A program made the position numbers and the translations under genes. A stretch of DNA of 64,000 nt from Gammaproteobacteria bacterium (GTDB lineage Bacteria > Pseudomonadota > Gammaproteobacteria > SZUA-140): contig JACREF010000008.1 in NCBI GenBank assembly GCA_016218365.1, forward strand, positions 124,001-188,000. The letters are read 5' to 3'. Under the pieces are notes generated by a model that was given only the letters and a program-made list of their open reading frames with translations, did no database searches and was not told where the DNA came from. Shown here piece by piece: positions 38,671 to 41,337 of this stretch (position 1 is its first letter; every line of letters begins with the position of its first letter).

Positions 38671-38786
38671 GATGGGATCTACCAATCTCCAGCGCCGCCG
38701 GACACCGGCCGCAGGCGCTGACTCAGACTATTACGGATGTTCAATTTCATGTCGTGCGCAACAGGAGTTTGGCCCCTTATATTCTG

Positions 38787-38846
38787 CCATAACGCAACCA
38801 TGCCCAAAATTAGAACTCATAAACCGTGGTCTGTTTCGTGTTACGT
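38787..38846 (-). repeat. Degenerate attC-like site after the CHAT-like cassette
   Basis: On the minus strand ACGTAAC (38840-38846), overlapping the stop of the 38841-39590 gene, and GTTATGG (38787-38793) stand where attC R'' and R' boxes are expected, about 60 bp apart. Both deviate from RYYYAAC and GTTRRRY. The internal symmetry is weak, so this is only a plausible decayed site. Confidence 0.35.
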
Positions 38847-39590
38847 TCTGGGCCCCGCTTTCAATTTCCCGGAATTCCACAACCGAAAGCTTGAGCTTCC
38901 CGGCACCGACTCACGCGCGTGCCGGAAGGCAACGCCCGTGGTCTTCCCATTTAAGAGGTGGCTAGTTAGAAAAGTCTGACAGAATTGTGAAGCAACTGCT
39001 CCTTCAACAGAGTGAAATGGCCCAATAAAATACCTACAGATAGGTGCTTCCGACATGATTGCACCAAAACTCTGGTACCCAGTTTTGCAGCACAAGGATA
39101 TGTAGGTCTTTTTTGGGGCACCATGTACTCGAAGTTCCTGGACGAGGGTAGCGGAATCTTTCCAACCATCAACGGCGAACTTGATACCCGTTTTATTCCC
39201 ATGACCTATCCAAATTACGTGCGAATATGCTGCTTGGTTCTGCTGCCAGAATTGCGTTAACTCCGCGAGACTTCGAACACGAACAGAGCGGATTTGATCA
39301 TCCGGAACAAGTAGGCGGCAAAATTGGGCCACGGATTTAGCGAGCGGGTCCAATAACGTATGTTCAGTTTCGAAGTCACCAATATTTATAACAAGTATTC
39401 CGACATCCTTGTGTAGTAGTGCAGACCCAATCAAACCAGACGGATTTCCGTCTCGCAAACGCACCTTCACTCGTTTTCCGTTGAGCTCAACTACGCTGGT
39501 CTTGTATAGCGCCACCCCCGTGCTTTCCATGCCAGGAATGCATGTGCAGGGAACATATACGGTATCGCCAATATGAAGGGTTCTCGCCAT
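38841..39590 (-). CDS. CHAT/caspase-like cysteine peptidase homologue in an integron cassette
   Basis: A 249-residue protein of unknown function. Residues 1-60 look like an SH3-like beta-barrel (HIGDTVYVP, NGKRVKVRLRDG). The rest has the clan CD pattern: a hydrophobic strand and HG dyad (VIWIGHG, H130-G131), then after about 35 residues a strand ending in SLCCKTG (C168), matching the CHAT motif LSACxTG. The later IGPFHSVEGAVASQF and GVAFRHARE complete the fold. No signal peptide is seen. CHAT proteins are often proteases in immunity or cell-death systems; that role is inferred. The start lies 11 bp from an attC site and the stop within another. Confidence 0.72.
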   Translation of the reverse strand: MARTLHIGDTVYVPCTCIPGMESTGVALYKTSVVELNGKRVKVRLRDGNPSGLIGSALLHKDVGILVINIGDFETEHTLLDPLAKSVAQFCRLLVPDDQIRSVRVRSLAELTQFWQQNQAAYSHVIWIGHGNKTGIKFAVDGWKDSATLVQELRVHGAPKKTYISLCCKTGYQSFGAIMSEAPICRYFIGPFHSVEGAVASQFCQTFLTSHLLNGKTTGVAFRHARESVPGSSSFRLWNSGKLKAGPRT

Positions 39591-39600
39591 AGTTTTTGGC

Positions 39601-39690
39601 AGCTAACGCCATGCATAAGCCGCGAGCAAAACGCGCGGCGACTTGCGAGTCGAGTATGCGGAGCACACGGGCTTGATGCATTTGTTGGGT
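39601..39690 (-). repeat. attC recombination site (90 bp)
   Basis: On the minus strand it begins with ACCCAAC (complement of 39684-39690; matches RYYYAAC) and ends with GTTAGCT (39601-39607; one mismatch to GTTRRRY). The inner arms AAATGCATCAAGC and GCTTATGCATGGC are imperfect complements, and GC-rich variable sequence lies between them. It begins 4 bp after the stop at 39695 and ends 10 bp before the ATG at 39590, the usual tight spacing of gene cassettes. Confidence 0.82.
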
Positions 39691-39694
39691 GTCT

Positions 39695-40138
39695 TCATTG
39701 CCGACTCAATTCAGCGATGAATTCGTGAAGCCGACGCGACCTGCCATCAAGTGACTTCGACATTTTCGATTTCTCCGAGCTGTCACCGTAGAACGTCATG
39801 CCGCTAAAGTCTCTAAATCGAACAACGTATGCGGCACCAAGACTATCGCGCAGCCAAGCTTCAACGCGCGCCACCCAGGTGTTATGGTCCGTAACTGGGA
39901 GCGGCGTTTGATCCAGCCGCGCCCGCAATGCTTGAGCCTCTTGAATAAAGGTTGCCAACTTTTCAGCTTGGTGCCTTCGCTCGGCGGGCGTGATCTTTTC
40001 TTCTTTGATAGGAAGCAGATCCTTTGACTTTTTCGTAGCCCAGGACAATAGATCGACGTTGTTTGTCCACGTCAGATACGTGAGCCATCCGAGGAAGAGC
40101 GTTAAAACAATTCTGCTGATCCAAAGTGTCATGTACAT
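39695..40138 (-). CDS. Unknown membrane-anchored protein, integron cassette gene
   Basis: A 147-residue protein with one N-terminal membrane helix (residues about 5-25, WISRIVLTLFLGWLTYLTW). A basic and helical segment follows (ITPAERRHQAEKLATFIQEAQALRARL), then a C-terminal domain of no recognised family (VVRFRDFSGMTFYG). The ATG at 40138 (or 40132) is preferred; the longer frame to 40150 uses a TTG inside the attC site. The gene lies alone between two attC sites, typical for a cassette. No function can be assigned. Confidence 0.7.
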   Translation of the reverse strand: MYMTLWISRIVLTLFLGWLTYLTWTNNVDLLSWATKKSKDLLPIKEEKITPAERRHQAEKLATFIQEAQALRARLDQTPLPVTDHNTWVARVEAWLRDSLGAAYVVRFRDFSGMTFYGDSSEKSKMSKSLDGRSRRLHEFIAELSRQ

Positions 40139-40144
40139 TTCGAC

Positions 40145-40207
40145 ACCCAACGTAAAAGTGAGGGACTGCGCGCTTTTGCGCAGTCCCTATCGACTGCCGG
40201 GTTGGGC
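40145..40207 (-). repeat. attC recombination site (63 bp)
   Basis: On the minus strand it starts with GCCCAAC (complement of 40201-40207; exact RYYYAAC) and ends with GTTGGGT (40145-40151; exact GTTRRRY). The centre holds near-perfect arms AGGGACTGCGC and GCGCAGTCCCT. It begins 1 bp after the stop of the 40209 gene and ends 7 bp before the next ATG. This short form is near the lower end of attC lengths. Confidence 0.87.
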
Positions 40208-40208
40208 A

Positions 40209-40790
40209 TCATCCGAAGAATACCTTGGCGATGATGCCTACAATGGCGATGACAACAGCAACTACAATTTCGGCGAGATACTTGCGCCACCATGGCTCGG
40301 CCTTCGCTTGAGGACTTGCGCTCCGATGCGAAAGGACAGAGTAGATCGAGCACGCTGTGAAATGCTGAGCGGTGCATGATGACCACGACCAAAGAGGGTG
40401 ACCGGGAGGAGTGCCATCTTTTTCGAGACGCTGGTGAGCAAAGTCCGAATCGATTTCATCACCGTACTTGGTGAGGCCACTTGCGAAATACCCGAATCGC
40501 TCAAATGTGACCTCTGGACAGAAGTTGCAATAGATGGATGGGTTGTCAGGAGTACCGAATAGAGATGTGGCTTGCTCGTCGGTACGTGGCCAAAGGTCGC
40601 TTGATTTCCAATTCTTGAGAAGCCGCTCATCTTCGGCCTCAGGAATCTTTGTACTGCCCGCTTTGCCAAGAAGAGACAAGCTCTGGTAGTAGCGCGGGCA
40701 CGACTGAACAGTTGCGAAAGGGCAGCGAAAAGCAACGCCTCGCTCTTGGCTTAAATTTGCGTACCACTCACGATTAGGAATATCCGTCAT
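40209..40790 (-). CDS. Unknown Cys-containing tail-anchored protein, first cassette gene
   Basis: A 193-residue protein with a C-terminal membrane helix (about 172-191, AEIVVAVVIAIVGIIAKVF), preceded by basic PWWRKY. This suggests a tail anchor with the soluble part in the cytoplasm. Six cysteines occur in pairs or spaced sets (C23/C31 in CPFATVQSCPRYY, C88/C91 in YCNFC, C139/C147) and could bind metal. No known family was recognised. It is the first cassette after the attI-like region and would be read from an integron promoter or its own. Its stop lies next to the attC at 40145-40207. Confidence 0.72.
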   Translation of the reverse strand: MTDIPNREWYANLSQERGVAFRCPFATVQSCPRYYQSLSLLGKAGSTKIPEAEDERLLKNWKSSDLWPRTDEQATSLFGTPDNPSIYCNFCPEVTFERFGYFASGLTKYGDEIDSDFAHQRLEKDGTPPGHPLWSWSSCTAQHFTACSIYSVLSHRSASPQAKAEPWWRKYLAEIVVAVVIAIVGIIAKVFFG

Positions 40791-40956: not shown

Positions 40957-41337
40957 ATGTCGGATTCCCTTTCTCAGCATCCCGATGCCGCCTCGCGTTT
41001 TTTTGATAACTATCTGATCCTGCTCGACAGAAATAAGATGCCCGACAAGCGGCGGTGCTGGTATGTCAAGCATGTCGAGGACTTCATTAGGGCGCAAAAC
41101 AGGCGCAAGGTCAAGGGGCTTTCCGGTCATGATGTAAGCGGATACCTTGCCATGCTAGGCCGCCACAACCGGCTGCAGGACTGGCAATTTTCCCAATGTA
41201 TCGATGCTATGTGGATTCTCTACATCGAGGATCTCGCCTCAATCTCGCTGGATTTGATCACCTCTTCGATAAGGATTTCAGCACGGCGCAACGTGAAGCC
41301 CAGCACCTTCATCCGCCCGATCAGGCGCCCCTGACGG
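40957..41337 (+). pseudogene. Truncated integron-type integrase, N-terminal part only
   Basis: A 126-codon frame, of which residues 1 to about 90 look like the N-terminal SAM-like domain of long gammaproteobacterial integron integrases: RFFDNYLILLDRNKMPD, WYVKHVEDFIRAQNRRK, LSGHDVSGYLAMLGRHNRLQ and WQFSQCIDAMWILY. Homology stops near 41230, where sequence antisense to a Fic-family gene begins. The catalytic domain with the R-H-R-Y residues is missing, so it cannot recombine DNA. It retains a strong AAGGAG site and lies divergent from the cassettes, the standard intI position. Confidence 0.72.

Follow-up and report, generated by a model that had tools for sequence, protein, structure and literature searches.

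The gene at positions 38841-39590 (minus strand) of the 64,000-nucleotide stretch of gammaproteobacterial DNA analysed here (the window) is a member of a rare family that moves horizontally, is scattered over four phyla and is repeatedly placed beside defence genes. We propose, with a probability of roughly two in three, that the family comprises minimal stand-alone CHAT-type cysteine peptidases that would serve as phage-defence effectors, probably through abortive infection. Support comes from the predicted fold, from the conservation of a His-Cys pair and from the gene neighbourhoods of homologues.

Predicted fold and active site

The window gene is an intact 249-codon open reading frame with an ATG start. 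Its predicted parts are as follows:

38841-39590, minus strand: predicted stand-alone SH3/Tudor-CHAT protease gene, 249 aa (open reading frame, homologues, AlphaFold2, VIA-align)
39405-39590, minus strand: N-terminal SH3/Tudor-like barrel, residues 1-62 (separate fold of residues 1-64)
38856-39404, minus strand: CHAT (caspase-like) domain, residues 63-245 (VIA-align against 8tl0, model residues 63-243)
39201-39203, minus strand: codon of the predicted catalytic His130, which aligns with the CHAT His
39087-39089, minus strand: codon of the predicted catalytic Cys168, which aligns with the CHAT Cys

An earlier note on this DNA had proposed a CHAT/caspase-like protease homologue with an SH3-like N-terminus, an HG dyad at H130-G131 and a cysteine, C168, in the motif SLCCKTG. 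These residue positions are correct in the 249-aa frame, although an HG and Cys motif taken alone would be weak evidence. Pfam, PADLOC, NCBIfam and PHROGs gave no family assignment for the protein; its sole Pfam match, DUF1816 (E 0.049), fell under the cut-off and was dropped. CHAT (PF12770) was absent from the Pfam scan of the window protein at E 10 and from that of two other members (L002 and L003) at E 1, so that the profile check proposed in the note failed by sequence, with the gathering score not reached, and we class the protein as CHAT-like without counting it in PF12770. Against the PDB, sequence searches returned only matches of E 0.6 or worse with the protein and none with the family profile, and a fold search was therefore needed.

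The AlphaFold2 model of the full protein, built from 16 homologous rows, reached a mean pLDDT of 91.9 and a pTM of 0.90. Foldseek with this model ranked four chains of the SAVED-CHAT filament (8tl0) highest (E 3.1e-8 to 1.1e-7), with caspases and separase below them, and VIA-align against 8tl0 gave Z 19.7 and an rmsd of 2.5 A over 172 aligned residues, followed by gingipain RgpB (Z 14.5), legumain (14.3) and caspases (near 13). An hhalign comparison of the family profile with 11 PF12770 domains of the same class aligned both predicted catalytic residues, H130 and C168, to the His and Cys of CHAT (E 1.5e-4, at a probability of only 51%), and the two stand behind the strands where a CHAT peptidase has them. 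Residues 1-64 folded alone (pLDDT 85.7) resembled SH3 barrels of the Tudor, PWWP and KOW types with a best Z of 8.1, in agreement with the SH3-like N-terminus of the note; the barrel is a small fold and thus says little about function.

Conservation was assessed in 22 homologues, made up of 17 intact alignment rows, two further viral copies and three broken copies. H130 and C168 are each present in all 22 and are the only invariant residues among the nine histidines and seven cysteines of the protein, while G131 occurs in 21 (alanine in L021) and the adjacent C167 in only 14. The earlier note had staked its reading on a caspase-like fold and on constancy of H130 and C168 across homologues, and both were found.

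Probable integron setting and distribution of the family

The window gene is the third open reading frame counted from an attI-like end, with two attC-like sites upstream of it:

39603-39691, minus strand: attC-like site at the boundary of cassettes 2 and 3, paired arms recognised by reading (fold z -0.73; 45 of 200 shuffles equally good)
39695-40150, minus strand: cassette 2 open reading frame, 151 aa, one N-terminal hydrophobic segment, no family match
40140-40212, minus strand: attC-like site at the boundary of cassettes 1 and 2 (fold z -3.52; none of 200 shuffles equal to it)
40209-40790, minus strand: cassette 1 open reading frame, 193 aa, one C-terminal hydrophobic segment, no family match
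40957-41334, plus strand: possible integron integrase fragment, N-terminal part only (PF13495 E 3.7e-4 and TIGR02249 E 3.4e-4, both below the cut-off, TIGR02249 far below)

Positions 40149-40203, inside the second of these sites, match an attC-like stretch that adjoins the intact intI on contig C29 of this genome, with 87% identity across 55 bp. Downstream of the window gene (38760-38845) no attC was recognised. A homologue on a MAG contig (L010), 77% identical to the window gene, directly adjoins an intact integron integrase (TIGR02249, E 1.4e-144) and provides independent support for a cassette origin, as the earlier note had it.

The local intI is at best a 125-aa fragment. The genome's own intact integron integrase lies on another contig (G000:C29:2927-3865, L052), and the fragment, tried as a relative of that integrase or of the one in L010, resembled neither; its dissimilarity from the genome's own intact integrase suggests a second, decayed integron platform.

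The two neighbouring cassette genes had also been described as encoding membrane-anchored proteins, and by sequence reading each does carry one hydrophobic segment. The idea that they form a membrane-linked defence group with the window gene was dropped: compared with the homologue loci, the cassette 1 and 2 proteins had no match at E 1e-3 except in their own genome, so they do not accompany homologues, and they occupy separate cassettes. Against plasmids, the cassette 2 protein had no match and the cassette 1 protein had six distant ones at 27-30% identity (Escherichia, Salmonella, Mixta).

Counting the window's own genome each time, one genome in 20 of its taxonomic family, two in 369 of its class and one in 398 of a phylum sample carry the gene. 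Plasmid records contained one homologue in 72,556, and five of 50,697 phage records, representing three phages, contained one. Viral contigs searched with the single protein yielded nothing; homologues do occur on viral contigs (L005-L007, L039, L040). Among genome contigs of 84,980 species we found at least 15 homologue loci, a lower bound since that search was pattern-based. The hosts are Pseudomonadota, Actinomycetota, Acidobacteriota and Labilibaculum, which we take from its name to belong to Bacteroidota. Each of 15 re-searched genomes has one copy (the split copies in G397 and G398 counted as one each).

The branches of the family tree are long and several of its forks are left open; the window gene and the L010 homologue pair at 100/97. 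Two close homologue pairs are under purifying selection (dN/dS 0.029 for L006/L007 and 0.159 for L017/L018); for the window gene against L010 or L011 the program returned no dS, as with saturated sites. Four copies are interrupted, by TAA (L014), by TAG (L016), by a frameshift in a low-coverage MAG (L023) and by a split (L024), and these interruptions at different places suggest that a costly gene has been lost repeatedly or, for L023, assembly errors.

Genes beside family members

The earlier note had raised a link to defence, and the neighbourhoods of homologues support it: members adjoin type I restriction, Bil, 6A-MBL, DpdE/DrmMI-like and other restriction-type genes, and a STAND ATPase. 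The tightest arrangement is in Shinella (L019), where the family gene is embedded in a type I restriction operon in the order hsdR, family gene, hsdM, hsdS, its start overlapping the hsdR stop and its stop overlapping the hsdM start. On a Pseudohalocynthiibacter plasmid (L002) the gene follows a complete Bil operon (BilA, BilB, BilC, BilD); the Primorskyibacter locus (L017) is 97% alike and was counted with it as one context. The broken Stenotrophomonas copy (L014) adjoins an E2-E1-JAB fusion (L014:6006-8399; NCBIfam 6A-MBL cap2_3, E 1.8e-164), and a WYL regulator is encoded close by. A WYL protein is also found near the Bil locus of L017.

In Solibacter (L015) the family gene lies between genes for a DpdE-like helicase (7e-261) and a DrmMI-like methylase (8e-78) on one side and a TPR-GreAB-C-PIN protein on the other, and all of them share a strand. 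The operon (L015:3020-15970) also includes an uncharacterised 402-aa protein and is possibly an undescribed Dpd/DISARM-like system. The Thioalkalivibrio copy (L011) stands between an opposite-strand gene for a ResIII/DUF3427/PLD protein and one for a NERD-UvrD helicase (PADLOC C3a187, 8.6e-179), and the Labilibaculum copy (L023) follows Ppl-like and HEC-06-like genes and one uncharacterised gene. In Stutzerimonas (L020) it is flanked by genes for a 1712-aa NACHT-like protein (a weak match) and a weakly PD-T7-5-like protein. That region (L020:4466-13535) comprises the NACHT-like protein, the CHAT gene and then three little-known genes.

Mobile settings include integrons (the window and L010), the viral contigs, Gordonia phages and an element carrying an integrase and DUF927 (L042). 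Three loci with long flanks (L016, L021, L022) have no recognised defence neighbour, and three others (L012, L013, L024) are contig ends or partial loci. The contexts differ greatly, with no single partner common to all, and no dedicated substrate gene recurs beside family members.

To compare neighbours with background, 95 open reading frames from nine loci (103 selected minus eight family members) were matched to PADLOC alongside 105 control reading frames from nine other stretches of the same contigs; the simple reading-frame caller used here overlooked the L021 family member. At E 1e-25 the neighbours matched 73 PADLOC families and the control 23, figures that count families and not genes, since one gene may match many models. 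The best 25 of the 73 neighbour families were of restriction, Dpd and DISARM type, whereas the control matches were mostly one kinase-type family plus mad3/mad6, with no restriction-type models. This excess beside family genes, given here without a p-value, is suggestive.

Possible roles and known relatives

Rare relatives in several unrelated anti-virus operons and in prophages make the family a good candidate for an unrecognised immune protease. In the mechanism that we propose, the barrel, or the partner defence complex where an operon has one, would sense infection, upon which the His130-Cys168 active site would become ordered and the activated protease would cut a host or phage protein, stopping phage growth, probably by abortive infection. 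We infer the proteolysis, its trigger, its target and the abortive outcome from the CHAT relatives SAVED-CHAT and TPR-CHAT, as far as the excerpts of the two reports describe them (PMC11229360, PMC9729208). Integron and prophage copies would act alone, and in the type I restriction, Bil, 6A-MBL, DpdE/DrmMI and similar operons the protease would be an added protein-cutting arm. The diversity of partners suggests a trigger that either lies in the barrel itself or is shared by many infections.

Three other roles have to be weighed against that of a phage-defence effector. The operon-embedded position, with overlaps on both sides in Shinella, and the occurrence in two separate ubiquitin-like contexts would also suit a processing protease that matures, releases or switches a partner component (e.g., HsdR/HsdM, or Bil or 6A-MBL Ubl conjugates) and is not itself the phage-stopping arm. 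We regard this as unlikely, since the partners are mutually unrelated, solitary copies in integrons and phages have none of these partners, and Bil and the cap2_3-like fusion already include a JAB peptidase. The copies in prophages, phages, a plasmid, integrons and an integrase-bearing element could instead point to a counter-defence or competition protease that cuts host defence proteins so that the mobile element establishes; this seems very improbable in view of the chromosomal copy whose reading frame is coupled to those of the restriction operon around it, where there is no obvious reason for a cutter of the cell's own system.

Placement beside defence genes may also reflect hitch-hiking in defence islands, which counts against the effector reading. 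A CHAT-fold housekeeping or stress protease that has no immune role and lies near defence genes through shared islands would account for the three long-flanked loci with no recognised defence gene and for the broken copies, but it fits poorly with the extreme rarity (1/20, 2/369 and 1/398 genomes, own genome counted) and with the phage copies, and we hold it to be quite unlikely. The effector reading can be taken further: the protease may be a module that can be plugged interchangeably into unrelated immune systems (type I restriction, Bil, 6A-MBL, DpdE/DrmMI-like, STAND), guarding them in the manner of PrrC and working alone in integrons and prophages, with gp35 of Gordonia phage CarolAnn as all or part of that phage's second defence. 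This broader picture is tentative, and we lean against it as a whole.

To our knowledge, the CHAT proteases that act in bacterial immunity occur as domains within larger sensors linked to CRISPR or CBASS. The closest solved structure to the window protein is the CHAT domain of one of these, SAVED-CHAT (PDB 8tl0), an effector of type III CRISPR and CBASS systems. The 249-aa window protein differs in having no room for a SAVED sensor, carrying instead its barrel of about 60 residues, and the scanned neighbours included no recognised CRISPR or cyclase gene. Clan CD peptidases (caspases, legumain, gingipain, separase) have the same overall fold, at Z about 13 to 14.5, but are about 5 Z units weaker than SAVED-CHAT, and the window protein is bacterial and a single short chain. 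PrrC is an anticodon nuclease found inside type I restriction operons, and the Shinella arrangement resembles it in placing a second effector gene within such an operon, but PrrC is a nuclease, not a protease, and is unrelated to the family in sequence. TPR-CHAT (Csx29 of Craspase) shares the CHAT-type fold class and a His-Cys dyad, with a spacing of 42 residues from H585 to C627 in the excerpted report (PMC9729208) against 38 from H130 to C168; the window protein has a strand barrel and no Pfam TPR match, and neither gRAMP/Cas7-11 nor Csx30 was recognised among the scanned neighbours.

A single-gene SH3/Tudor-CHAT family in restriction, Bil, 6A-MBL, integron and prophage settings was not found in the open-licence literature searched. 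CHAT proteases in immunity are already known as a kind. Here one 250-residue gene, unrecognised by the four family collections (Pfam, PADLOC, NCBIfam and PHROGs), has spread to mobile elements and to numerous immune operons of unrelated types. If its product is an effector, it would add protein cutting to restriction and to ubiquitin-like defence.

CarolAnn gp35 (KX557275, gene 35) is a family member. According to the parts of a 2019 study of this phage that we drew on (PMC6426606), genes 34-36 are transcribed in the lysogen at a somewhat lower level, and the gene pair 43/44 accounts for only part of CarolAnn defence: Woes, Monty and Wizard plate normally on a strain carrying 43/44, and a separate, unmapped CarolAnn system must act on others, e.g., Huffy and Vendetta. 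The gp43/gp44 pair resembles gp35 in lying in the same prophage region and in being expressed in lysogeny, but it is RexAB-like and unrelated to gp35 (PMC6426606, same parts). CarolAnn lysogens resist phages such as Woes, Monty and Wizard by a mechanism not mapped in that study, for which gp35, given its expression in the lysogen and the partial effect of 43/44, is a candidate, not a demonstrated cause. In a search of the phage collection, the six other lysogen phages in the table of that study had no homologue at E 1.

A search of the study's text as we had it found gene 35 nowhere mentioned by itself, and its authors point to gene 39, along with that gene's homologues, as possibly involved in defence (PMC6426606, in part). 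Genes 34, 36, 38 and 39 are equally open candidates beside gp35. CarolAnn genes 36-39 (L062:4874-7882), uncharacterised and expressed in the lysogen, lie beside gp35 and are candidates for the unmapped defence as well.
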